A DNA stretch of 37,225 bases, taken from NCBI GenBank assembly GCA_021805665.1, contig JAJZEV010000266.1, forward strand, positions 1 to 37,225, written 5' to 3'. The notes under the pieces are model-generated. The model was not told the DNA's origin and ran no database searches. It saw only the letters and a list, made by a program, of their open reading frames with translations. Source of the stretch: Pseudomonadota bacterium (lineage in GTDB: Bacteria; Pseudomonadota; Alphaproteobacteria; Acetobacterales; Acetobacteraceae). Numbering within the stretch: the first letter of the stretch is position 1; every line of letters starts with the position of its first letter. The position numbers and the translations under genes were made by a program. This document shows positions 2,659-20,112 of the stretch, one piece after another.

Positions 2659-3753
2659 GTGACTTGGCAGATAATGCCCGGCTTGCTCGTGCCCGATACC
2701 CGCACCCAACCCTTCGCCCCCGGGGGGCGTCGAATGTCGGCTAGCGCAAATTCCGCTCCACCCCGCCTTCGGGGTCAAGTCGCGAAGTCCGCCGCATTCA
2801 AACCGTCACAGGAACAAATCGTCCTTCTTATCACGCTTTTGCTGTTGGTTGTATTCAGCGTCGCGCTGCCCGGCTTTTCCAGCATCGCCAATTTACTGAA
2901 CCTGATGCGCAGCATTTCCATTCTGGGAATCCTCAGTCTGGGAATGGGGCTGATCGTCATCAGCCGCGGCATAGACCTCAGCGAGGTGGCGATCATGGCC
3001 GGTTCCTGGTCTGTAGCCCTGATCGAGATCCAGAAGGGGATGCCAGTCTTCTGGGCGGCGTCCATCGCCGTGGGTATCGCGGTGGCGATCGGCCTTGCCA
3101 ACGGCGCGATGGTCGCGTTCATCGAGGCACCAGCCCTGTTCGTTACGCTCGCCGCCGGCTTCGTGATCTACGGCGTGGCGTTCTGGTTCGCGCCCGCCTG
3201 GGTGGTTTACGGGCCGAAAGACGCACCCGGCCTGCTGTTCCTGGGGGCGGGGCATATTTTTGGCATCCCGGTGCCGATCCTCGTGTTCGCGGCGGCGGCG
3301 GTCCTTATGCATCTGTTCCTTTCGCGCACATCCACGGGGCGGTTCATCTACAGCCAGGGCGACAATCCCGAATCGGCTCGCATGGCGGGCATCGCGCTGC
3401 GGCCGCTGATCGTCCTGGAATACGTCATCGTCGCGCTGGTGGCCTGGCTGGCGGGGCTGGTCTGGATCGGCACCACCGGCAGCATGCAGATGGCCATCAC
3501 CCAGGGCACCATGGTCTTCGACGTCATCCTGGTGGTCGTGCTTGGCGGTATCAGCCTGGTCGGTGGCCGGGGTGGCGTGTTCAGCGTGGTGGTCGGCTGC
3601 GCCCTGATCGGGACGCTGCTGAATGCCTTCACCATCATGGACATCAACAGCGAAGTGCAGAACATCATCCGCGGCGTGGTTCTGCTGGCCGCGATCATCC
3701 TCGATAACTGGCTGCATCCACGCGACGAGGAAACCGCGCGCCAGGGCGACTGA
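2659..3753 (+). CDS. CUT2-family sugar ABC transporter permease (first of two)
   Basis: This inner-membrane permease belongs to the RbsC/BPD_transp_2 type. It is strongly hydrophobic, with about 8-10 membrane segments. Family hallmarks are LSLGMGLIVISRGIDLSEV, the N-P-E-S-A-R-M-A-G-I cytoplasmic loop, and VVLGGISLVGGRGGV near the end. It should pair with the second permease (4912-7062) and the ATPase (8184-9749) to import a small polar compound delivered by the binding protein. The GTG at 2659 has GGGGAGG only 3 bases away; an in-frame ATG at 2734 would give a 340-residue protein closer to the family length, so the start is uncertain. It opens an operon that runs to 9749. Confidence 0.9.
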   Translation: MTWQIMPGLLVPDTRTQPFAPGGRRMSASANSAPPRLRGQVAKSAAFKPSQEQIVLLITLLLLVVFSVALPGFSSIANLLNLMRSISILGILSLGMGLIVISRGIDLSEVAIMAGSWSVALIEIQKGMPVFWAASIAVGIAVAIGLANGAMVAFIEAPALFVTLAAGFVIYGVAFWFAPAWVVYGPKDAPGLLFLGAGHIFGIPVPILVFAAAAVLMHLFLSRTSTGRFIYSQGDNPESARMAGIALRPLIVLEYVIVALVAWLAGLVWIGTTGSMQMAITQGTMVFDVILVVVLGGISLVGGRGGVFSVVVGCALIGTLLNAFTIMDINSEVQNIIRGVVLLAAIILDNWLHPRDEETARQGD

Positions 3754-3806
3754 TATCGCCCGCCCACAACCGGTAACAAACCAAACAAATAAACGGGAGA
3801 CGGCAC

Positions 3807-4835
3807 ATGAAACATCCAAGACGGTTCGTTTGGACGATCGTATCGCTTGCGTTTACCGCCCTGTTGGCAGGCCCGCTGGTCGTTCGCGCCCAAGAGGCTG
3901 GCACCAAGACCGCCCGGGAACTGCGCGCCGACTACAACAATGCGATCAACGGTAAGACCATCGCCTTTCTGCCGATCGCCCTGGGTGTCCCGTTGCAGGA
4001 CGAGTGGGAACGCGTGATCCGTACCGAAGCCGAGTATAACGGCATGAAATACATCGTGCGCGATCCCAACAACAACCCGTCGGCGATGCTGCAGGCGCTG
4101 ACCGCGCTGGTGAACGACAAGCCTGATGTGCTGATCGTGCAGAATCCCAGCGTCACGCTGCTGGTCAAGGAACTGAAGCGGGCCGAACAGCAGGGCACCC
4201 ACGTCATCCAGATGAACATGTCGTCCAACTACAAATCGGATGGCTTCGTCGGCGCCGACTGGGTCGAAATCGGCCGTTTGCTGGCGCAGGACGTAGTCAA
4301 GCAGTGCGGCACCGGTTCCGGAAAATCCGGCAAGGTGCAGATCGTGCAGGGTGAACTCACCGCGGCCGCCAGTGTCGATCAGATCGGCGGCATCATGGAG
4401 GTGTTCAACAAGGATCCGGCCATCAAAGTGGTATCCAACCAGGCGGCTAACTGGGATGCCAACACCGCGCTGAATATCACCGCGACCGTGATCCAGCAGA
4501 ACCCCGATTTGTGCGCCAGCGTCGGATTCTGGGGCATCATGGAATCGGGGGCCGCGCAAGCCATCCGTAATGCCGGCAAGATCGATCAGGTGAAGGTCTA
4601 TGCCTCGGTCGAAGGTTCCCAACTCGATTGCGACCAACTCACCCAGGGCAGCTTCTATAAAGTGCTTAGCTATACCGCGACGCTCCAGGGCCATGCGGCG
4701 ACCGATGCCGCCCTGATGATGCTGGAAGCGGGTGACAAGCCCGGCACCACCCACCGGCTGCTGTTCACCCGGCCGATCTGGTTGGACAAGACAAATGCCA
4801 CGGGGGGCAACTGTTTCCCGCTGCCGAAGAAGTAG
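3807..4835 (+). CDS. Periplasmic sugar-binding protein of the CUT2 ABC transporter
   Basis: This is a 342-residue secreted binding protein of the ribose/galactose type (Peripla_BP_4). The N-terminus has a basic start (MKHPRR), a hydrophobic core and a likely signal peptidase site after Ala28 (VVRA/QE). The mature part has IAFLPIALGVPLQDEW, KPDVLIVQNPS and QIVQGELTAAASVDQIGG, matching the two-lobed fold that captures a ligand in the periplasm. Two late cysteines may form a disulfide. GGGAGA at 3795-3800 precedes the ATG by six bases. Placed between two permease genes, it surely serves this transporter. The ligand cannot be read from sequence; neighbours with lactonase-like folds suggest a sugar, sugar acid or lactone. 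Confidence 0.9.
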   Translation: MKHPRRFVWTIVSLAFTALLAGPLVVRAQEAGTKTARELRADYNNAINGKTIAFLPIALGVPLQDEWERVIRTEAEYNGMKYIVRDPNNNPSAMLQALTALVNDKPDVLIVQNPSVTLLVKELKRAEQQGTHVIQMNMSSNYKSDGFVGADWVEIGRLLAQDVVKQCGTGSGKSGKVQIVQGELTAAASVDQIGGIMEVFNKDPAIKVVSNQAANWDANTALNITATVIQQNPDLCASVGFWGIMESGAAQAIRNAGKIDQVKVYASVEGSQLDCDQLTQGSFYKVLSYTATLQGHAATDAALMMLEAGDKPGTTHRLLFTRPIWLDKTNATGGNCFPLPKK

Positions 4836-4911
4836 CGATCCAACCCGGCCGCCGCGCCCGTCCACAAGGACCGGGCGGTGGCCGGCCCAAGGAAGCACTC
4901 AAGGAAGTACG

Positions 4912-7062
4912 ATGTCCTCAACGACCCTGGACTTCACGAGCTTTGGTAAACGGCTGCGTTCCAGCTATTCGCCGCGGCTGCTGCTGTCCGAACTTCTGTT
5001 GAAACAGTGGTTCGAACCGGTCATCCCCTTCACCGTGATGATCGCGCTCGGTTTGTATTTTTCCGTAACAATTCCCGAATACGGCACGCTCGCGAATACG
5101 GCATCGCTGCTGCGGCTGTTCGCGGAGTTTGGCTTCGTCGCGCTGGGAATGGCGCTGAGCCTGATCAGCGGCGGTATCGATCTAAGCGTGGGCGCCATCC
5201 TGGCGGCCAGCAATTTCGCCGCGCTCTATTATTTATACGTGCTGGAACTGCCAACCTGGGGGGTGATCCTGGCGACCCTGGCGACCGGCGGCGCGATCGG
5301 CGCCGCGAATGGCGCTCTGGTGGGCTATTTGAAGGCGCGTCCATTCCTGACGACCCTGGTCACGCTGATCATCCTGCGCGCGTCGGTCAATCTTCTGAAC
5401 GAACGCTATGCCACCGTTTTCGCAACCAATTCGGTGGATAGTTCCGCTTGGGACTATATGGGCGACGGCACCCTGCTGGGCATCCCGATCAACGCGGCTG
5501 CATTGCTGGCGGTTTTGCTGGTCGGGCACGTATTGCTAAGCCGGTCCCGCTACGGCTGGCATCTGACCGCCATCGGCGCCAGCCGCAAAGCGGCCCGGCA
5601 TGCCGGAATCCGGGTGGAGCGCATGCTGTTCGCCACCTACGTGCTGTCAGGCATGCTCTGTGCCGTCGGCGGCGTGTTCTACGCCGCTCGGCAAAACAGC
5701 ACGGATTCGACAACCGGCGTCGGCTGGGAATTCCAGGCATTGACCGCGGTGGTACTCGGCGGGGTTTCGCTGGCCGGCGGCAAGGGGACGGTCTGGCGGG
5801 CGATGATCGGCGGACTGATCGTCTTCATGCTGACGAACGGGCTGGTCCGCCTGGGCATCCCCGGCTACGTGACGTCCGCCGTGATCGGCGTGATTTTGCT
5901 GGCCGCCGTCGGGATTGACGTCAAATGGTCGAAGAACCGGGGCAAGGCGGCGCAGAAAATCTATGTGAACCCGGCCCGCCTGCCGCTGGCGGATGCACCG
6001 TCGATCGAGGCAGGCAGCGGCTCGCCATATGCCCACAACAACCGGCTGGTAAATGCCGAAGCGATCGGGTTGAACCAGGTAGAAGGGCCGGAGGACGTTA
6101 TCCTGGACCGCCATGACCGGCTGTACGGATCGACCCGCGACGGCAACATCATTCGGTTTTCCGGCCCGAACCTGGAGCAGCGGGAGGTATTCGCCCATAT
6201 CGGCGGCCGGCCGCTGGGCATGCAGTTCGATGCCAACGAGAACCTGATCGTGGCGGTTGCCGGCATGGGGGTGTACGGCGTCAAGCCGGACGGCACCGTG
6301 TTCAAGGTTACCGATGAAACCAGCCGTACCTGGTACAAATTGAACGACGATTCGCGCCTGCGGATGGCGGATGATCTGGATATCGCGCCGGATGGCAAAA
6401 TTTACTTCAGCGACTGCACCACCCGTTATGAAATGACGACCAATACGCTGGACGTGATGGAAGGGCGGCCAAACGGGCGGCTGGTCTGCTACGACCCGGC
6501 GACGAAGAAGACATCGACCGTGCTCAATCACTTCTACTTCCCGAACGGCATCTGCGTGTCGCATGACGGGAAGTCGGTGCTGATCGCCAGCACCTCGCTG
6601 TGCAAGATATTCCGGTACTGGGTGGCGGGTCCAAACAAAGGCAAGCTGGAGGTACTGATCGACGATCTTCCAGGACTGGCCGACAATATCAACAGGGCCT
6701 CGGACGGGACATACTGGCTGGCACTGGTCGGCATCCGGTCCCCGGCATTCGACCTGGCGATGCGCAATCCGGGACTGCGGTTGCGGATGGTGAAGCAGGT
6801 GCCGATCGACGAATGGCTGGCGCCGGGCATGAACCACGGCTGCGTCCTGAAATTCACCGAATCGGGCGAGGTTCTAGGGTCCTGGTGGGACCCAAGCGGG
6901 GTGTCGCATTCGACCCTGACGTCGATGCGCGAGCACAAGGGCTATCTCTACCTCGGCGGCCTGGAGAACAACCGGATCGGGCGGATCAAGCTCGACGGCG
7001 TCGATGAGACATGGACGGGATATGAGGCGTATTGGGGCGGCAAGCGGCGGGATCGGGGTTGA
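4912..7062 (+). CDS. Fusion protein: CUT2 ABC permease (N) and SMP-30/strictosidine-synthase-like beta-propeller (C)
   Basis: One uninterrupted 716-residue frame joins two normally separate proteins. Residues 1 to about 340 are an RbsC-type permease (LGMALSLISGGIDLSVGAI, the S-R-K-A-A-R-H-A-G-I loop, VVLGGVSLAGGKGTV). After the last membrane helix a basic stretch (KWSKNRGKAAQK, 338-349) and a linker lead to a six-bladed propeller of about 330 residues. Its likely metal-site residues by analogy with SMP-30 are Glu391 (EGPED), Asn545 (YFPNG) and Asp591 (LADN), all retained. AAGGAAG at 4901-4907 supports the 4912 start. E. coli RbsC has a cytoplasmic C-terminus and the linker is basic, so the propeller should face the cytoplasm and could act on substrate as it enters. 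No frameshift or stop separates the halves. Confidence 0.9.
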   Translation: MSSTTLDFTSFGKRLRSSYSPRLLLSELLLKQWFEPVIPFTVMIALGLYFSVTIPEYGTLANTASLLRLFAEFGFVALGMALSLISGGIDLSVGAILAASNFAALYYLYVLELPTWGVILATLATGGAIGAANGALVGYLKARPFLTTLVTLIILRASVNLLNERYATVFATNSVDSSAWDYMGDGTLLGIPINAAALLAVLLVGHVLLSRSRYGWHLTAIGASRKAARHAGIRVERMLFATYVLSGMLCAVGGVFYAARQNSTDSTTGVGWEFQALTAVVLGGVSLAGGKGTVWRAMIGGLIVFMLTNGLVRLGIPGYVTSAVIGVILLAAVGIDVKWSKNRGKAAQKIYVNPARLPLADAPSIEAGSGSPYAHNNRLVNAEAIGLNQVEGPEDVILDRHDRLYGSTRDGNIIRFSGPNLEQREVFAHIGGRPLGMQFDANENLIVAVAGMGVYGVKPDGTVFKVTDETSRTWYKLNDDSRLRMADDLDIAPDGKIYFSDCTTRYEMTTNTLDVMEGRPNGRLVCYDPATKKTSTVLNHFYFPNGICVSHDGKSVLIASTSLCKIFRYWVAGPNKGKLEVLIDDLPGLADNINRASDGTYWLALVGIRSPAFDLAMRNPGLRLRMVKQVPIDEWLAPGMNHGCVLKFTESGEVLGSWWDPSGVSHSTLTSMREHKGYLYLGGLENNRIGRIKLDGVDETWTGYEAYWGGKRRDRG

Positions 7063-7065
7063 GGC

Positions 7066-8187
7066 ATGGGCTTTCTGACCAATGTCGTGCGGGATATCGA
7101 GCAGATCGTCTTCCGCAACCGCGATCGGCACGCGATCCCGGCCATGGATGGGGCGATCAGTCCGAACGATCGTCTGGACGCGTTGCCGCGGATCGGCGCA
7201 CCGCTTGCGGGTGCCGACGACGTGGCCGAAGCGCCCGATGGCGCGTTGTATGTGTCGGCCGGGCGGCAGGTTTTCCGCCTGAGTGGGCCGGACCATGCTG
7301 ATCGCACGGAATTTGCGTCGTTCGACCGCGATGCCGGCGCGCTGGCCGTTCATCCGGATGGGCGCCTGCTGGTGTGCGTCGCGGGCCAGGGGCTTGCAGC
7401 GATCGACGCCGCCGGCCAACGGGCGTGGCTGACCGAGGTCGAGGGTCAGCCGCTGCGGTGTCTGACGAGCGTGGCGGTGGCAAAGGACGGCACGATTTTC
7501 ATGACCGACGGCAGCAGCGCCCATGAGCCGGATGCCTGGTGCCGTGACCTGATGGCGAAGAACCACCTCGGGCGGCTGGTGTCCTGCGGTCCCGCGCTTG
7601 GCACCGCGCGGGTACTGCTTCGGGACATGTATTACCCGAACGGGCTGGCGATTGCCCCCGGCGGAAAGGAACTGTGGTTCACCGAAAGCTGGTCTCACCG
7701 GGTCAGCCGAACCGCGATCGAAGGGCAGGCGATCGGCCGTCCGCGCGTGGCGATCGACAACATGGCGGGATATCCGGGCCGCCTCGCCCCGGCGGCTGGG
7801 GGCGGTTTCTGGATCGCGGTGTTCGCGGTGCGCACGCATCTGGTCGAATTCGTTTTGCGGGAGGACGACTACCGCGAGGAAATGATTCGCACCATTCCGC
7901 CTGCCTTATGGGTCGCCCCGGCGCTGGCCACAAGCAACCATTGCCACGAACCGATGCAGTTCGGATCGATCAAGGCGCTGGGAATCGAAAAGCCCTGGGC
8001 ACCGCCCCGATCGTATGGGCTGGTGGTGCGGATCGACGAAGAGGGCGATCCGTTGGAAAGCCTGCACAGCCGTGTCGGCGGCCGCATCCATGGCGTCACG
8101 GCGGCGCGGGAGACGGCGCTTGGGCTGGTTATCGTCTCCAAGGGCAGCGGCCAGGTCGTTGTGTATAACCCGGAGGGCAGGTCATGA
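7066..8187 (+). CDS. SMP-30/strictosidine-synthase-like beta-propeller protein, probably metal-site degenerate
   Basis: The 373-residue protein is a soluble relative of the propeller half of the upstream fusion. It shares the N-x-L-G-R-L-V-S/C pattern and the YYPNGLAIAPGG blade (Asn192), followed by WFTESWSHRV. Two of the expected metal ligands look lost: the EGPE position reads GADDVAEAP, and the usual D-N pair of GYPDN is GYPGR (Gly238). It has no signal peptide, so it should be cytoplasmic. It starts three bases after the fusion's stop and its own stop overlaps the ATPase start (ATGA), so it is translated as part of the transporter operon. It may be a binding or structural partner rather than a hydrolase; this is inference. 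Confidence 0.85.
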   Translation: MGFLTNVVRDIEQIVFRNRDRHAIPAMDGAISPNDRLDALPRIGAPLAGADDVAEAPDGALYVSAGRQVFRLSGPDHADRTEFASFDRDAGALAVHPDGRLLVCVAGQGLAAIDAAGQRAWLTEVEGQPLRCLTSVAVAKDGTIFMTDGSSAHEPDAWCRDLMAKNHLGRLVSCGPALGTARVLLRDMYYPNGLAIAPGGKELWFTESWSHRVSRTAIEGQAIGRPRVAIDNMAGYPGRLAPAAGGGFWIAVFAVRTHLVEFVLREDDYREEMIRTIPPALWVAPALATSNHCHEPMQFGSIKALGIEKPWAPPRSYGLVVRIDEEGDPLESLHSRVGGRIHGVTAARETALGLVIVSKGSGQVVVYNPEGRS

Positions 8188-9749
8188 ATGTCGCGTTGAC
8201 ACCACCACGCGGCGCGGCGGCGGCGGCGAAGGGGCCGGGAGCCGCACGCGAGCCGGTGCTGCGTATCGTCAACGGGAATAAGATCTATGGCGGCGTCCAT
8301 GCGATCGAGGATGTCAGCTTCGATCTGTTCCCCGGCGAAGTGCATGCGCTGGTAGGCGAGAATGGCGCGGGCAAATCCACATTATGCAAGGCGATCGCGG
8401 GCGCCATCCAACTGACGTCCGGCGATTTCCAGGTGGACGGCAAGCCGGCCCGTTTCGAAAGCCCGCGCGACGCGCTGGCAGCCGGTATATGTATGGTGTA
8501 CCAGGAAACCAGTCTGGTTCCGACGATGACGGCGGCCCAGAATATAGAGCTTGGCAACGAAAAACTGATCACGCGGTTCCGGACGCTGAACATCCAGGCG
8601 CAGCAATTACTGCAATCGCTGAACTTCCATGTCGATCCGGCCACGCCGATCGGCATGCTGGGCACCGCCAAGCGCCAGATGGTGGAAATTGCCCGGGCGG
8701 TTTACAATAATGCGCGTATCATCATTTTCGACGAACCGACGGCAAGCCTGACGCCCGAAGAAATCGTGCATTTCTTCAATCTGGTGCGCGATCTGCGGGC
8801 GCGCGGCGTGGCAATCATCTACATTTCTCACGCACTTGAAGAATCGTTGCAGGTTTCCGACCGGATCACCGTGCTGCGCGATGGCAAGCTGGTGATTACC
8901 GCGGACACCGCCGACATGACGCGGGAAAAACTGGTTCGCTTCATGATCGGGCGCGACATCAGCCAGACGCACTACTCGCACCGGGCAGGACACGCGGAGA
9001 GGCGGCGGGAACGGCGTGGCAAGGTGCTGACGGTGGAAAATGTCACCATGGGCACGACCGTCAAGAACATGTCGTTCTCGATCTATGCCGGGGAGGTCGT
9101 CGGCATCGCCGGCCTGATCGGGTCCGGACGAACCGAAATTGCCAAGATCATCTTCGGTGCGCTCAAGCGGAACCTGATCGACGGCGGCACGATCCGGCTG
9201 CACGGCCGGCCGGTTCGGTACAACGTGCCAAAACAGGCGATCAACGACGGAATCGCCTATATCACCGAGGACCGGAAGCTGAACGGCTTCTTCGAGACAA
9301 TGGTGGTGGACGACAACGTCTATATCGGCAAGCTGGCGACCCGCGCTGGCTGGCGGTTCCTGCTGTCCATGGCGACGCGCGGCAAGCTGGCGAATTACTG
9401 GGTGGACCGGCTGAAAATCGGCACGCTTCAGCGCAAGGCGAAAATCGTCGAACTGTCGGGCGGCAATCAGCAGAAGGTCGTGATCGCCAAGTCGCTGGTG
9501 CAGGATCCGCGGATCATCATCTTCGACGAGCCGACGCGCGGCGTCGATGTCGGAACGATCCCGGAGATTCACGCGCAAATCCGCGCGCTGGCGGACGAAG
9601 GCAAGGCGGTTGTGGTCATTTCCTCCTACCTGCCGGAGGTGCTCAGTATTTCCGACCGCATCCTGGTCGCGCGGATGGGCCGGATCGTCGCGGAGTTCGA
9701 CGCCGCGGACGCGACCGAAGACAAGATCATGTATGCGGCCATCCATTAG
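8184..9749 (+). CDS. CUT2-family sugar ABC transporter ATP-binding protein (two NBDs)
   Basis: This 521-residue RbsA/MglA-type ATPase has two nucleotide-binding halves. NBD1 has Walker A GENGAGKST (58-66) and Walker B IIIFDEP (179-185), but its signature reads LGTAKRQ (159-165) instead of the usual LSxxxxQ. NBD2 has the degenerate Walker A typical of the family (GLIGSGRTE, 310-318), a canonical LSGGNQQ (424-430) and Walker B IIIFDEP (444-450). It powers uptake through the two permeases encoded upstream, on the cytoplasmic face. The start overlaps the preceding stop by four bases. It closes the operon; the 153 bases to proA contain small GC hairpins without a T-run and no clear terminator. Confidence 0.93.
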   Translation: MNVALTPPRGAAAAAKGPGAAREPVLRIVNGNKIYGGVHAIEDVSFDLFPGEVHALVGENGAGKSTLCKAIAGAIQLTSGDFQVDGKPARFESPRDALAAGICMVYQETSLVPTMTAAQNIELGNEKLITRFRTLNIQAQQLLQSLNFHVDPATPIGMLGTAKRQMVEIARAVYNNARIIIFDEPTASLTPEEIVHFFNLVRDLRARGVAIIYISHALEESLQVSDRITVLRDGKLVITADTADMTREKLVRFMIGRDISQTHYSHRAGHAERRRERRGKVLTVENVTMGTTVKNMSFSIYAGEVVGIAGLIGSGRTEIAKIIFGALKRNLIDGGTIRLHGRPVRYNVPKQAINDGIAYITEDRKLNGFFETMVVDDNVYIGKLATRAGWRFLLSMATRGKLANYWVDRLKIGTLQRKAKIVELSGGNQQKVVIAKSLVQDPRIIIFDEPTRGVDVGTIPEIHAQIRALADEGKAVVVISSYLPEVLSISDRILVARMGRIVAEFDAADATEDKIMYAAIH

Positions 9750-9902: not shown

Positions 9903-11150
9903 ATGGAAGCGACTGAACACCTTCGACTGGCCGCCACCGCCGCCCGTGACGCCGGACGTGTGCTGGCCCGCAGCAGCGAGGCAACCCGCAACGCGGCCCT
10001 GGCCGCGATGGCGGATGCGTTACGCGAGGGCATGCGCGACATTCTGGCGGCCAACGCGCTGGATGTGGCCGCCTATACCGGAACGGCGGCATTCCTGGAC
10101 CGGCTGACGCTGACCGAAGCCCGCGTCGAGGCGATGGCCCGCGGGCTGGAGGATGTGGCCGCACTGCCCGATCCGTTGCAGCGTACGCTGGCGGACTGGA
10201 CGCGTCCCAATGGCTTGCGCATCCAGCGGATCGCGACGCCGATCGGGGTGATCGGCATGATTTACGAAAGCCGCCCGAATGTGGGGGCCGATGCCTCCGC
10301 GCTATGCCTGAAGTCGGGCAACGCGGTGATCCTGCGTGGCGGATCGGACAGCGCGCACAGTGCCAAGGCGATCAACCTGGCGCTGCAACGCGGTTTGGCG
10401 GCCTCGGGCCTGCCGCCGGCCTGCATCCAGGTCGCACCGAATGCCGACCGGGCCTATGTGGCGGCGATGCTGGCGGGCGCGGGGTTGCTGGATCTGATCA
10501 TCCCCCGCGGCGGCAAATCCCTGGTCGAACGCGTCCAGCGCGACGCTCGGGTGCCCGTCCTGGCCCACGCCGAGGGCCTGAACCACACCTATGTTCACGA
10601 AGCCGCCAACCCCGCCATGGCTCGGCGGATCGTGGCGAACGCAAAGATGCGGCGCACCGGGGTATGCGGGGCGACGGAGACGTTGCTGATAGACCAAACG
10701 ATCGCGCCCGGCCTGCTGCCGGTGCTGGTGGCGGACCTGCGGGCGCTGGGCTGCGATTTCCGGGCGGATGCGGCGGCGCGCGCGATCGTCCCCGATCTGC
10801 ACGCGGCGGCGGCGGCGGATTTCGATACCGAATGGCTGGACTCGATCCTGTCCGTCGCCGTGGTCGATGGCGTGGACGCGGCGCTGGCGCATATCGCCGC
10901 GCATGGCAGCGAACATACCGATGCCATCGTGACCGAGGACGCGGCGGTGGCGGAGCATTTCCTGCGCGGGGTGGATAGCGCGGTGGCGCTGTGGAATGCC
11001 TCCACCCAGTTCTGCGACGGAGGCGAATTCGGCTTCGGAGCGGAAATCGGGATCGCAACCGGACGCATCCATGCGCGCGGGCCGGTGGGCCTGGAGCAGT
11101 TGACGACCTATCGGTATCTGGTCCTGGGGACCGGGCAGATACGGCCCTGA
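9903..11150 (+). CDS. proA: Glutamate-5-semialdehyde dehydrogenase (gamma-glutamyl phosphate reductase)
   Basis: The 415-residue cytoplasmic enzyme reduces gamma-glutamyl phosphate to glutamate semialdehyde with NADPH, the second step of proline synthesis. Recognisable segments are TPIGVIGMIYESRPNVGAD, AVILRGGSDS, LDLIIPRGGKSLVE, and the catalytic loop RRTGVCGATETLL with Cys255; HARGPVGLEQLTTYRY closes the protein. Length matches the family. No strong SD precedes the ATG. Its usual partner proB is not upstream; the ABC transporter operon lies there instead. It is followed at 47 bases by nadD, a common alphaproteobacterial order. Confidence 0.96.
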   Translation: MEATEHLRLAATAARDAGRVLARSSEATRNAALAAMADALREGMRDILAANALDVAAYTGTAAFLDRLTLTEARVEAMARGLEDVAALPDPLQRTLADWTRPNGLRIQRIATPIGVIGMIYESRPNVGADASALCLKSGNAVILRGGSDSAHSAKAINLALQRGLAASGLPPACIQVAPNADRAYVAAMLAGAGLLDLIIPRGGKSLVERVQRDARVPVLAHAEGLNHTYVHEAANPAMARRIVANAKMRRTGVCGATETLLIDQTIAPGLLPVLVADLRALGCDFRADAAARAIVPDLHAAAAADFDTEWLDSILSVAVVDGVDAALAHIAAHGSEHTDAIVTEDAAVAEHFLRGVDSAVALWNASTQFCDGGEFGFGAEIGIATGRIHARGPVGLEQLTTYRYLVLGTGQIRP

Positions 11151-12319: not shown

Positions 12320-13135
12320 TCAGACCGGCGGCGGTGCGTCTAACAGCCGCCTTGCGGCGTCGATCGCGCGCCGAATCACCGCACTTGGCCCTTCAGACCG
12401 GGACAGGCTGGTCATCGGCACCTCCAGCGCCACGGGGATTCCGGCCGGCATGCGGGCCAGGACGGCCCTGATTTCGATGCCGCCTTCGCCCGGCGGCAGA
12501 CGTTCCGCCCTGGCGTGATGTAACTGGCCTTCCAGGGTGGCTGGCCGTTCGGCTGGCGCGTCGCAGACATGGACGAAGGGCATCCTGGCGGGCGGGATCG
12601 CGTCCAGATCGGCGGGGACGTTGCCGCAGCGGTCGAAGTGCAGCGTGTCCACCAGTATGCCGCCGTTGGCCCGTCCGGCCGCTTGCACCACCGCGTTGGC
12701 GCGGGCGACGCTGTCGATCCCGGTCCAGGGGAAGAATTCAAGCACCACCCCCTGCCGGTATCGCGCGGCCAGCGCGCACAGCGCGCCGAAGCGGTCGGCC
12801 AGCCTGGCCGGATCGGGATCGTAGGGCGCCGCGACCGCCCAGCCTGCGCCCAGCTCCGCGCCAACGGCGAAGACTGGCTCCAGCGCCGGGATGTCGATGT
12901 CCGGGGCGATGCGGATGAACTCGATATCGTTCACGGTGACTCCGGTATCGGCCATCGCGGCGCGGGTTTCGCGCAGCATCGGCCTGTCGCTCATCAGCGG
13001 ATACCAGGGCGTGTCGCGGGCGACCTGGATCAGGCGCAGCCCGACGGAGGCGTAACCGGCATCGGCCGCGGCGCGGATCAACGCGGGCGGCGGCAGGGAC
13101 AGGGCGGTCAGGTGGGCAAGGGAAAACCGGGTCAT
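12320..13135 (-). CDS. Sugar phosphate isomerase/epimerase-like TIM-barrel protein
   Basis: The 271-residue protein resembles the xylose-isomerase-like/AP-endonuclease-2 TIM-barrel family. Strand ends carry probable metal ligands: Glu133 in LEFFPW, Asp163 and His166 in VDTLHF, a His in FVHVCD, and Glu238 in LEVPM. Such enzymes isomerise or dehydrate sugars and polyols in the cytoplasm. The start at 13135 (MTRFSLAHLT) was chosen because it begins the first barrel strand; an in-frame extension to 13381 overlaps the oppositely oriented small secreted gene and is not protein-like. No operon partner is present on this strand, so the substrate is unknown. Confidence 0.8.
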   Translation of the reverse strand: MTRFSLAHLTALSLPPPALIRAAADAGYASVGLRLIQVARDTPWYPLMSDRPMLRETRAAMADTGVTVNDIEFIRIAPDIDIPALEPVFAVGAELGAGWAVAAPYDPDPARLADRFGALCALAARYRQGVVLEFFPWTGIDSVARANAVVQAAGRANGGILVDTLHFDRCGNVPADLDAIPPARMPFVHVCDAPAERPATLEGQLHHARAERLPPGEGGIEIRAVLARMPAGIPVALEVPMTSLSRSEGPSAVIRRAIDAARRLLDAPPPV

Positions 13136-13214
13136 GCCGGGCAGTTTAGGCCAGCCGGTACGCCGCGGTCGAGCCGGGTGAACGCCTCGATGCGGTCTTG
13201 TTGGAGATCGTAAG

Positions 13215-13481
13215 ATGGACAAAAGTATAGTTGGACCGATCGGTGCTGTCGGGGCGCTGGTTGCCGTCGCGCCGGCCCGGGCCGCCTCTGACGTCCCGCT
13301 GACGATGGAAACGTCGCGCCGGCCCGGGTCCCATGGCGATCTGCTGAAACCGATCCCCAATGCCGCCGCACTGCTGGCCATGGCGCGTTCAGGTCCGGTG
13401 CCCGAGGCCCGGAATCCGGTGCAGCAGGTGCAATATCACCACCACCACGACAACTACTACGGCGGTGGATATTACCGTTAG
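13215..13481 (+). CDS. Small secreted His/Tyr-rich protein
   Basis: This 88-residue protein has a likely signal peptide (MDKSIVGPIGAVGALVAVAPARA), a middle with HGDLLKPIPNAAALL, and a C-terminus of QYHHHHDNYYGGGYYR. I recall similar small proteins in Acetobacteraceae and other alphaproteobacteria: a signal peptide, a D-L-L-x-P-I-x-N-A segment and a His-rich tail. Their function is not established as far as I know. The His cluster suggests metal binding in the periplasm, which is inference. Its TAG overlaps the stop of the convergent gene by four bases. Confidence 0.65.
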   Translation: MDKSIVGPIGAVGALVAVAPARAASDVPLTMETSRRPGSHGDLLKPIPNAAALLAMARSGPVPEARNPVQQVQYHHHHDNYYGGGYYR

Positions 13482-14191
13482 TCGGGCGACGATTTCTTGA
13501 GATGCCGGGCGGCACCGAAGATGCGGCGATAGGTGCCGTCGAAAACCGTATCGGTCGAAGACAACCACCTGGTATCGGCCGATAGCGTCGCCCGGCTTGC
13601 GTAGATACGCTGAGATTGCAATTCGCGTTCGGCTGCTTCTTCGTCCGTCATCGGGATGATGTCGAATTTCGTTTCGGATGGAACGATGGTGATTTGGATG
13701 AATGGCTCACCGGGGCGGAAAATGTGGGTCTGGCCCTCGGCGGGGGATTTGAAGACGAGGAAGAATATCATCGGCCACCAGGGCTGGATGACGGCCGGGA
13801 CGGCGATCGGCGCGGTGCCCGTCGTGTCGGTGTAAAAACCCGGGTGTGTTTCGGTCTTGAAGGCCCACCCGTCTTCCACCTTCAGGTCGATCAGGCTTTG
13901 GTAGGTGTAGTATTCCTTGCCGAATGTGCGGAACGGGGGGCGTTGGCTTTCCAGGAAATCGCCATCGAAGTGAAGCGCACCGTCGCGGGCGGTGACATGG
14001 AGTTCGTGATCGAACGGATACGTAAGCTCGATCCCCGCGCGGGCGGCCTCCGAAAACGGGATGCAGTGCCATGGATATTCGTGGGATCCGTCCGCCCTCG
14101 GTTCCGATTGGCCGGCCCAGCCGGGGACTTCCAGCCGGGTCCGGCGGGGGATGAGGTTGGGGTGGACAGTGCGGTATTTCACGGTTGGCAT
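13478..14191 (-). CDS. Protein of unknown function, 237 residues
   Basis: I do not recognise the family. The frame is well formed with sensible composition and many aromatic residues. It has no signal peptide; the hydrophobic VIQPWWPMIFFLVF (about 137-150) looks like a buried strand or a single membrane-associated segment rather than a transmembrane bundle. Other distinctive pieces are PYPFDHEL-like Y-P-F-D-H and FIQITIVPSETKFDI, the latter beta-strand-like. The C-terminus is basic and polar. It starts at 14191 with only a weak AAGG upstream, and its stop is shared with the convergent His-rich gene. No partner gene is present, so no function is proposed. Confidence 0.65.
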   Translation of the reverse strand: MPTVKYRTVHPNLIPRRTRLEVPGWAGQSEPRADGSHEYPWHCIPFSEAARAGIELTYPFDHELHVTARDGALHFDGDFLESQRPPFRTFGKEYYTYQSLIDLKVEDGWAFKTETHPGFYTDTTGTAPIAVPAVIQPWWPMIFFLVFKSPAEGQTHIFRPGEPFIQITIVPSETKFDIIPMTDEEAAERELQSQRIYASRATLSADTRWLSSTDTVFDGTYRRIFGAARHLKKSSPD

Positions 14192-17730: not shown

Positions 17731-19785
17731 ATGAACGATCTGTTCGGGTCCGGGTCCGATAAATCCGCACCGAAACCGACCGCGAAGCCGCCGGCCAAGC
17801 CGGTTCGGGCCGATACCGATACGCGCCTGCCGCTGCCGGTTCGCGACGATTCGGACTATTCCGCCAAGGATATCGAAGTCCTGGAAGGTCTCGAACCCGT
17901 CCGCAAGCGCCCCGGTATGTATATCGGCGGCACCGACGAAGCCGCCCTGCATCATCTGGCGGCGGAAATCCTGGATAACGCGATGGATGAGGCCGTGGCC
18001 GGCCATGCCAGCTTCATCGAGGTCTCGGTAGAAGAAGGCAACTGGCTGACCGTGCGCGACAATGGCCGCGGCATTCCTGTCGATCCGCATCCGAAGTTCA
18101 AAAACCTGAGTGCGTTAGAGGTCATCCTGACCACGCTGCACTCCGGCGGCAAGTTCGGCGGCAAGGCGTACGCGACCTCCGGCGGCCTGCACGGCGTGGG
18201 CAGCTCCGTGGTCAACGCCCTGTCGGAGTTCATGGATGTGGAGGTCGCGCGCGACCGCATCATGTGGAAGCAGTCCTATCAAAAGGGCAAGCCGGTCACG
18301 AAGCTGATCAACGCCGGACCGGTGCACAACCGCCGCGGCACCAGCATCCGGTTCAAGCCGGACCCGGAGATTTTCGGCGGCCTGTCCTTTATTCCCAGCC
18401 GTTTGTACCGGCTGTGCCGCTCCAAGGCCTATTTGTTTCGCGGTGTCGAAATTCGGTGGAACTGCGCCTCCGCGCTGTTGAAAGGCGGCAAGGACGACGT
18501 GCCGGCGGAGGCGGTGCTGCACTTCCCGGGCGGTCTGCGCGACAGCCTGGCGGCCGATATCGGCGAGTTGGCGAAGGTTCTGCCGCAAATCTGGGCCGGC
18601 GAGGCTGCGTTGCCCGGCGAAGCCACCGGCAAGGTGGAATGGGCGGCGATCTGGCTGGAGCAGGGCGACGGATTCCTGCATTCCTACTGCAACACGGTCC
18701 CCACCGCGCAGGGCGGCACGCATGAGGCGGGATTCCGAGCGGCTCTGGTCAAGGGGCTGCGGGCGTGGGGAGAGCAGCGGGGCAACAAGCGCGCCGGCCA
18801 GATCACCGCCGACGACGTGCTGGACCCGGTGGCGGCGAAGCTGTCGCTATTTCTGCGCGATCCGCAGTTCCAAGGCCAGACCAAGGAGAAACTGACCAGC
18901 GGCGAGGCCTCTCGTCTGGTCGAAGGGGCGCTGCGCGATCGGTTCGATCACTTCCTGGCCGGCGACCCGGCCTCCGCCGACAATTTGCTGTCCTTCGTCA
19001 TCGAGCGCGCCGAAGACCGCATCCGCCGCAAGGAGAACAAGGACACCGCTCGGAAATCCCCCACAAGGCGCCTGCGCCTGCCCGGCAAACTGACCGACTG
19101 CACGCGGGAGAACGCGGCAGAAACCGAGATATTCCTGGTCGAGGGCGATTCCGCCGGCGGGTCCGCCAAGCAGGCGCGCAACCGCGAAACCCAGGCGGTG
19201 CTGCCACTGCGGGGCAAGATCCTGAACGTCGCCAGCGCCTCGGCCGACAAACTGCGGCAAAATCAGGAGCTGAAGGACCTGATCGAGGCGCTGGGTTGCG
19301 GCGTCGGCGACCGGTTCGATCGAACCAAGCTGCGCTACGGCCGGGTAATCATCATGACGGACGCGGATGTGGATGGCGCCCATATCGCATCCTTGCTGAT
19401 GACCTTCTTCTACAAGGAATTGCCCGAACTGGTGCGCCATGGGCACATCTACCTGGCGCAGCCGCCGTTGTACCGCCTGACTCAGGGTGCCAAGTCGATC
19501 TACGCGATGGACGATAAGGACCGCGAGCAGAAGATGCGCCGAGCGTTCAAGGCCGGGTCGAAGGTGGAGGTCAGCCGGTTCAAGGGCCTGGGTGAAATGC
19601 CGCCCGCGCAGTTGAAGGAAACCACGATGGACCCGTCGAAGCGGACGCTGCTGAAGGTGATGGCGGTGCCGGAAATGCGGGCGGCGACCAACGATCTGGT
19701 GGAAAGCCTGATGGGCCGGCGGCCGGAACTGCGGTTCGCGTTCATCCAGGAACGGGCGAAGACTGTGGAGGATTTGGACGTTTAG
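17731..19785 (+). CDS. parE: DNA topoisomerase IV subunit B
   Basis: The 684-residue ATPase subunit of topoisomerase IV, which with ParC decatenates daughter chromosomes. The GHKL ATPase domain has EILDNAMDE (79-87), DNGRGIP (110-116), SGGLHGVG (150-157) and the transducer lysine loop QTK (383-385). The TOPRIM domain has EGDSAGG (471-477) and DADVDGAH (544-551). KQARNRETQAVLPLRGKILN is closer to ParE than to GyrB. A Lys/Pro/Ala-rich tail of about 40 residues precedes the core. The C-terminus (FKGLGEMPPAQLKETTMDP) is complete. It converges on a small membrane protein gene 12 bases away. Confidence 0.96.
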   Translation: MNDLFGSGSDKSAPKPTAKPPAKPVRADTDTRLPLPVRDDSDYSAKDIEVLEGLEPVRKRPGMYIGGTDEAALHHLAAEILDNAMDEAVAGHASFIEVSVEEGNWLTVRDNGRGIPVDPHPKFKNLSALEVILTTLHSGGKFGGKAYATSGGLHGVGSSVVNALSEFMDVEVARDRIMWKQSYQKGKPVTKLINAGPVHNRRGTSIRFKPDPEIFGGLSFIPSRLYRLCRSKAYLFRGVEIRWNCASALLKGGKDDVPAEAVLHFPGGLRDSLAADIGELAKVLPQIWAGEAALPGEATGKVEWAAIWLEQGDGFLHSYCNTVPTAQGGTHEAGFRAALVKGLRAWGEQRGNKRAGQITADDVLDPVAAKLSLFLRDPQFQGQTKEKLTSGEASRLVEGALRDRFDHFLAGDPASADNLLSFVIERAEDRIRRKENKDTARKSPTRRLRLPGKLTDCTRENAAETEIFLVEGDSAGGSAKQARNRETQAVLPLRGKILNVASASADKLRQNQELKDLIEALGCGVGDRFDRTKLRYGRVIIMTDADVDGAHIASLLMTFFYKELPELVRHGHIYLAQPPLYRLTQGAKSIYAMDDKDREQKMRRAFKAGSKVEVSRFKGLGEMPPAQLKETTMDPSKRTLLKVMAVPEMRAATNDLVESLMGRRPELRFAFIQERAKTVEDLDV

Positions 19786-19797
19786 CGGTTTGGCCGA

Positions 19798-20112
19798 TCA
19801 GGTGCCAAGCGCCGGGATCAGCACATGCACCGCGAATACCAGAAACACCAGTATCGCGATCAATCGCATTTTGCCCCGCAATGCTCGGAACATGGCGAAC
19901 GCTAACAGCAAGGGCAGCGCGACTAGCAGCATGGTTTGCACGGAGTAGGGCAGGCCAATGGCTTGAAGCTGATCGCGAAGCGTGGTTTCGACGAAATCGA
20001 ACGCGAAAACGATACGTCGGAAATACAGGCCGAGGTATTTGTCGGCCATGTCCTGGTAATCGAATTGAACCCCCGCCAGCACGGTGTTCAGTAGCTGTTT
20101 CAAGTCGTCCAT
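19798..20112 (-). CDS. Small membrane protein of unknown function
   Basis: The 104-residue protein has an amphipathic N-terminal half (MDDLKQLLNTVLAGVQF onwards) and two hydrophobic helices near the C-terminus (TMLLVALPLLLAFAMF and LIAILVFLVFAVHVLI) separated by a short basic turn (RALRGKMR). I do not recognise the family. The start at 20112 was preferred over an in-frame TTG at 20133, with a G-rich stretch upstream. It converges with parE and diverges from the alcohol dehydrogenase gene. No partner suggests a role. Confidence 0.6.
   Translation of the reverse strand: MDDLKQLLNTVLAGVQFDYQDMADKYLGLYFRRIVFAFDFVETTLRDQLQAIGLPYSVQTMLLVALPLLLAFAMFRALRGKMRLIAILVFLVFAVHVLIPALGT

Follow-up and report, generated by a model that had tools for sequence, protein, structure and literature searches.

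The window analysed here, a stretch of 37,225 nucleotides that forms part of the genome of an Acetobacteraceae bacterium, carries at positions 4912-7062 of its forward strand a gene which encodes a true fusion of a CUT2 (RbsC-type) permease of the ATP-binding cassette (ABC) transporters with a strictosidine-synthase-like (SSL) propeller. The fused gene is part of a five-gene cassette (2659-9749). The reading that we favour with moderate confidence, on the basis of sequence comparisons and predicted structures, is that this cassette encodes an importer with a tethered lactonase or esterase and a non-catalytic propeller partner, the substrate of which would differ between lineages. The parts are already known from domain hits and database names.

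The open reading frame runs without interruption from the ATG at 4912 to the TGA ending at 7062 and encodes 716 amino acids with no internal stop. The Shine-Dalgarno-like sequence AAGGAAG (4901-4907, forward strand), noted in a preliminary description of this DNA, was confirmed by direct reading four bases 5' of the ATG. The permease part (residues 1-336; 4912-5919) was delimited by the BPD_transp_2 domain, the helices of an AlphaFold2 model and the charge pattern; the Pfam match extends over residues 63-333 and covers positions 2-269 of the 269 in the profile with 134.7 bits (cut-off 26.8). Behind the last transmembrane segment follows a basic linker rich in lysine and arginine (residues 337-371; 5920-6024), in which W339 and K341 are invariant and N342 and R343 nearly so among 24 sequences. 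The rest of the protein (residues 372-716; 6025-7062) is the propeller, identified by domain and fold matches. All its Pfam hits exceed their cut-offs: SSL_N at residues 372-416 (52.4 bits, cut-off 18.9), SGL at 436-607 and Str_synth at 487-573 (84.8 bits, cut-off 25).

The AlphaFold2 model of the whole fused protein (mean pLDDT 81.6, pTM 0.65) consists of helices up to residue 350 and of strands from residue 383. Residues 373-693 of the model gave a six-bladed propeller that matched TGW6 of rice (8kg3) with a Z score of 32.7 and a root-mean-square deviation (rmsd) of 2.5 over 278 aligned residues, followed by strictosidine synthases (STR; Z about 31), DFPase (about 30), the lactonase RPA3624 (29.9) and Drp35 of Staphylococcus aureus (28.7; rmsd 2.8, 279 aligned). 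As the structures compared were all propellers, this comparison says little about the fold of the permease part. The open frame, the Pfam domains and the predicted fold bear out the in-frame permease-propeller fusion with a basic linker that had been proposed initially. A missed stop or frameshift near 5930-6030, named at that time as one event that would undo the proposal, is ruled out because 42 aligned relatives with identities of 45-97 % have the junction at an identical position and contain no stops.

The cassette begins with PERM1 (2659-3753), which encodes a CUT2 permease with a BPD_transp_2 domain and no propeller, the presumed partner of the fused permease. The second gene (3807-4835) encodes a periplasmic sugar-type binding protein (SBP) of the Peripla_BP_4 family, for which the best NCBIfam model was that of the D-allose-binding protein at 75.6 bits, below the cut-off of 335. 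The fused gene is followed after a gap of three bases by PROP2 (7066-8187), encoding a free second propeller with SGL and Str_synth matches, the SSL fold and a lost metal site. PROP2 in turn overlaps by four bases the last gene (8184-9749), whose product is an ATPase of the RbsA/AraG type with two nucleotide-binding domains (two ABC_tran stretches) and is spanned in both halves by the AraG, XylG and RbsA models. All five genes lie on the forward strand. The full-length BPD_transp_2 domain, the double ATPase and the sugar-type binding protein encoded in the same operon identify the system as CUT2, and all sugar-specific NCBIfam models stayed under their cut-offs on the cassette proteins.

The fusion was compared at 45 loci of Alpha-, Beta- and Gammaproteobacteria (seven on plasmids, 19 from a contig search, 18 from further genomes and the window), no two of which are more than 95 % alike in the DNA of their cassettes. 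The order PERM1-SBP-PERM2::PROP-PROP2-ATPase, where PERM2::PROP stands for the fused gene, was found in 41 of them; the other four (L028, L031, L036 and L038) are truncated where their contigs end, and L026 has an incomplete ATPase gene. PROP2 is present in every locus that is not cut before it. The fixed order of five genes, the free second propeller and the spread over three classes had not been recognised in the preliminary description. Among the 43 loci with both junctions readable, a four-base overlap of the stop codon with an in-frame start joins the fused gene to PROP2 in 38 and PROP2 to the ATPase gene in 32.

The search for this architecture in other genomes, recommended at the outset, thus showed that the fusion recurs, and the idea that it is private to the genome of the window was rejected by matches at the level of genus, class, phylum and plasmids. 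Evenly drawn samples contained it in 11 of 398 genomes at the level of the phylum and, with one partial match included, in 10 of 385 at that of the class; the genome of the window counts towards both figures. Within the genus of the window seven of 33 genomes have a fused copy. A copy of 89-100 % identity is present in five genomes and a second kind, with approximately 50 % identity, likewise in five, three genomes belonging to both sets. The genome of the window has both kinds, on contigs C331 and C173; on the latter (17818-19917) the fused protein of a second cassette is 49 % identical. A search of 72,556 plasmid records gave 15 with a match over 80 % or more of the query, seven of which were inspected; the carriers include Shinella, Rhizobium, Salipiger, Sulfitobacter, Paraburkholderia and Pantoea. 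At least 19 further fused loci (L023-L041, with L038 cut inside the propeller) were present among the 80 matches listed in the contig search, the other 61 covering the permease part or little more. The carriers are related bacteria of soil, sea and plants. The fusion had been called rare, which holds for the sampled genomes of the class, but it is far from unique. In the records the fused protein is named SMP-30/gluconolactonase/LRE family protein, ABC transporter permease or RbsC; literature searches on the architecture and on the uptake of mevalonate by bacteria gave, among the titles listed, no description of a CUT2 permease-propeller fusion or of the paired cassette.

Propellers of the SMP-30, DFPase and PON type share a metal site of four residues (Glu, Asn/Asp, Asn, Asp/Asn), which on alignment corresponds in the fused propeller to E394, D/N487, N545 and N592. 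The codons of E394 and the neighbouring D395 (6091-6096) specify residues invariant in 45 of 45 sequences, as does the codon of N545 (6544-6546). At the codons of D487 and D488 (6370-6375) the former residue is Asp in 35 and Asn in 10 of the 45 sequences and the latter Asp in all, and D591 and N592 (6682-6687) are invariant in the 44 sequences that reach them; all four codon sets lie on the forward strand. Counted by hand along the HMMER alignment, E394, D487, N545 and N592 pair with Glu59, Asn167, Asn226 and Asn272 of TGW6, given in PMC10958001 as the positions equivalent to the Ca site. The stretch around E394 aligns weakly in sequence (0.9 bits); the structural match pairs residue 373 with residue 38 of TGW6 and so places 394 on 59 if no gap intervenes. 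Of the ligands suggested in the preliminary description, Asn545 and Asp591 proved invariant, but position 391 holds Glu in 37 of the 45 sequences and Asp in the other eight and falls on a Val of TGW6. Since E394 is invariant and lies on Glu59, it is most likely the Glu ligand of the metal, in place of Glu391.

TGW6 itself is described as having an incomplete site to which Ca2+ was not bound, and its authors point to the single acidic ligand (PMC10958001). Binding of Ca2+ by the fused propeller is nevertheless plausible, because the bacterial site mostly offers two acidic ligands (E394 and, in 35 of 45 sequences, D487) against one in the plant protein. The catalytic residue of strictosidine synthase, Glu309, falls by hand count on T670, in a weak third alignment stretch of 5.2 bits, and this position is Thr in all 44 fused propellers that reach it. 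Strictosidine synthase (Pictet-Spenglerase) chemistry, one of the two activities considered at first, is for this reason thought unlikely.

The location of the fused propeller was predicted from the permease. Ten transmembrane segments were placed by us from the AlphaFold2 model and the hydropathy profile, even-numbered loops being taken as inside, and lysines and arginines were counted. The sum was 15-20 in the loops predicted inside and 0-2 in those outside in 43 of 43 sequences. Therefore the propeller at the C-terminus should face the cytoplasm, in line with the topology of the family and with the original expectation. PROP2 showed no export signal: its N-terminal peak hydropathy (15 residues, Kyte-Doolittle) was 0.5-1.43 in 11 of 11 proteins, as compared to 1.79-3.55 in all six free SSL homologues examined, which are predicted to reside outside and possess a hydrophobic N-terminal segment.

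In PROP2 the fold is kept (pLDDT 83.5, pTM 0.84; Z 32.8, rmsd 2.9 and 278 aligned residues against 8kg3) and the four-residue metal site is not found. In an alignment of 43 copies, from which two truncated ones were left out, Asp was absent from the positions corresponding to 488 and 591 (0 of 43 each), Arg occupied position 592 in all 43, position 394 was Glu in seven and Asp in 33, and Asn was found at position 545 in 10. The copy in the window has N at 545, with G and R at 591-592. PROP2 thus looks like a partner without a metal site, and its retention in that state means that at least part of the propeller pair acts without one. This is the point at which another explanation gains ground, namely that both propellers are ligand-sensing regulators and that substrate accumulated in the cytoplasm would bind the pair and close the transporter by trans-inhibition. 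The occurrence of the cassette beside many different pathways is also what would be expected of a control module. The metal site of the fused propeller, though, is invariant or nearly so down to 45 % identity, which binding alone would not obviously demand, and the fold relatives listed are mostly hydrolases or strictosidine synthases. We regard the regulatory role as possible yet doubtful.

Information on the substrate of the favoured importer with its tethered enzyme was sought among neighbouring genes. The genes flanking the cassette vary between loci. No one pathway was found to be shared by all cassettes, and no Pfam family was present in more than six of 80 neighbour proteins, which we selected from the 244 predicted with a crude gene finder. 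At three of the 45 loci (L015, L023 and L138) the cassette shares a gene run with the gene of a degradative 3-hydroxy-3-methylglutaryl-CoA (HMG-CoA) reductase. In L015 (Shinella), which stands apart from the other two in the tree, the reductase gene abuts PERM1. In L023 (Mesorhizobium) the order is reductase, CoA-transferase III, enoyl-CoA hydratase (ECH), cassette and, directly behind the ATPase gene, HMG-CoA lyase, with overlaps of four bases both between ECH and PERM1 and between ATPase and lyase genes. L138 has the same three genes upstream and a lyase-like gene after the cassette on the other strand. A further case, L178 (G734, contig C25), was found through a class-wide search for the reductase and does not belong to the 45 loci; here reductase, cassette and lyase are followed by a second complete cassette. 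Besides these two tandem cassettes, a piece of another PERM1-like gene is present at the edge of L178. The reductases of L015, L023, L138 and L178 scored 434, 442, 431 and 431 bits, respectively, against TIGR00532 (cut-off 260), and the lyases of L023 and L178 398 and 370 bits against PRK05692 (cut-off 246). The reductase was detected in 12 of the 385 class genomes; two of the ten genomes with the fusion have it, G608 (approximately 256 kb away) and G734.

Four cassettes are tied to mevalonate by their neighbours. Drp35, also tied to mevalonate, has the same fold as the fused propeller but is unfused and only 16 % identical in sequence over the structural alignment. According to PMC6052127, this lactonase reaches 478 umol/min/mg on mevalonolactone, and its hydrolysis of the other lactones tested was slower by a factor of 100 or more.

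The bond cleaved might also be other than a lactone. CUT2 importers carry sugars, and several cassettes have genes for acyl-CoA ligase, ECH and CoA-transferase nearby, the products of which would process an acid once it is freed. Moreover, TGW6, the best match of the fused propeller in both sequence and fold, is reported (PMC10958001) to hydrolyse the glucose conjugate of indole-3-acetic acid (IAA-glucose). The fused propeller could accordingly hydrolyse a sugar ester or conjugate, so that the importer frees the acid inside the cell. The runs of mevalonate genes do not fit a glycoside ester, and we consider this explanation unlikely.

With respect to known systems, the cassette resembles RbsABC, AraFGH and AlsABC in its binding protein, its pair of BPD_transp_2 permeases and its single ATPase that has two nucleotide-binding domains, and differs from them in the propeller on one permease and in the second propeller gene. 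To our knowledge no CUT2 importer carries an enzyme domain on its permease. TGW6, whose four metal-site positions align with those of the fused propeller, is a plant protein outside any transporter. In a midpoint-rooted tree of 126 permease sequences the 45 fused permeases grouped with the second permease of locus L133 with a support of 1.0 for the 46. The latter belongs to a CUT2 permease::ATPase protein of 846 amino acids (L133, 7433-9973; G392, contig C14), the nearest propeller-less relative found. Its importer has the same PERM1-SBP order, but the second permease is joined straight to the double ATPase and the cassette contains no propeller gene. Because the split that places L133 outside the fused permeases has a support of 0.26, the propellers may have been gained after L133 branched off or may have been lost in it. 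Proteins of the L133 type were found in three of 100 genomes of the family of G392, including G392 itself and relatives at 53 % in G810 and G822, and the fusion was present in none of 274 evenly drawn genomes of its class.

In a tree of 108 propeller sequences the fused, PROP2 and free propellers formed one clade each. The nearest free homologues found of the fused propeller are bacterial SSL/SMP-30 proteins (L018 and L115; up to 239 bits), which have the hydrophobic N-terminal segment and the predicted outside location, as opposed to the predicted inside location of the fused propeller. One of them, from Pseudomonas aeruginosa (L018, 5920-6981), shares 38.5 % identity with the fused propeller over the match; its gene lies among genes of urate and allantoin breakdown and adjoins no ABC transporter genes. 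A role of the fusion as a mere membrane anchor of an unrelated housekeeping SSL protein, with no tie to the transported compound, would agree with anchoring or export being an old trait that the permease may have replaced, but it is very improbable given the single operon order, the mostly coupled genes, the retention of the second propeller and the opposite sides of the membrane on which free and fused propellers are predicted to lie.

The favoured reading can be put together as follows. The five genes would give rise to one CUT2-type ABC importer carrying its own first-step enzyme, in which the channel would be built from PERM1 and the fused permease and the double ATPase would lie beneath it. 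The fused propeller would hang in the cytoplasm from the C-terminus of the permease and hold a metal, probably Ca2+, by E394, D487, N545 and N592, and an ester or lactone substrate would be hydrolysed on entry. The resulting acid, being charged, would hardly leave the cell, and uptake would be pulled forward. PROP2 would probably be docked beside the fused propeller, either to keep it in place at the mouth of the channel or to take part in sensing the ligand or handing it on. At the loci within mevalonate-degradation runs the substrate would most likely be mevalonate together with its lactone, opened before HMG-CoA reductase and HMG-CoA lyase act. A more specific version, to which we give tentative credence at most, is that the cargo is converted during transport, the tethered lactonase opening mevalonolactone or another lactone at the cytoplasmic mouth of the channel and the catalytic and metal-less propellers forming an obligate pair.

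Several observations weigh against this proposal. TGW6, the nearest solved relative of the fused propeller, binds no Ca2+ (PMC10958001). The link to mevalonate is confined to the three loci and L178. Among the reductase surroundings of ten class genomes (stretches of 11-17 kb) nine contained no cassette, and mevalonate breakdown can accordingly proceed without one; L184 and L187 have the same reductase-CoA-transferase-ECH run without a cassette, and the reductase locus L185 contains genes for another CUT2-like permease and ATPase. Other cassettes have as neighbours genes of an acyl-CoA ligase (L024, L025 and L144) or of alcohol and aldehyde dehydrogenases (L016, L030 and L040), ten loci have a CMD-family gene nearby, and a lactone is not evident at all such neighbourhoods. 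The degradative reductase was not found in the draft genome of the window (94.5 % complete), and the neighbouring genes there name no pathway; mevalonate metabolised through HMG-CoA reductase is unsupported as the substrate of this particular cassette. Finally, a mirror-tree analysis of 26 loci gave 0.63-0.92 for all pairs of cassette proteins and 0.74 for the fused propeller and PROP2, and did not single out the two propellers as partners.

Some further genes were noted near the cassettes. Approximately 150 bases after the cassette of the window lies proA (9903-11150), encoding glutamate-5-semialdehyde dehydrogenase (542 bits, above the cut-off), with no evident link to it. Upstream, an open reading frame of 371 codons (1155-2270) has no Pfam or NCBIfam matches and may not be a gene, because a longer frame (1254-2609) overlies it on the opposite strand. 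In locus L137 a further SMP-30/gluconolactonase (SGL) protein is encoded on the same strand about 219 bases upstream of the cassette (12801-13784).

The cargo of ABC importers is usually assumed to enter the cell without chemical change. If the conversion of cargo during transport is true, the cassette would represent vectorial import plus hydrolysis by an ABC transporter, a counterpart of group translocation, with an Arg in PROP2 where a metal ligand once stood. An enzyme-like domain has been welded to a channel, with a dead-site twin as its constant partner, and the arrangement is kept across three bacterial classes. Should the activity be confirmed, it would show how uptake and the first step of catabolism can be linked, assign a function to proteins that at present bear no other name than SMP-30/gluconolactonase or ABC transporter permease, and provide a concrete candidate for a mevalonate/mevalonolactone uptake system.

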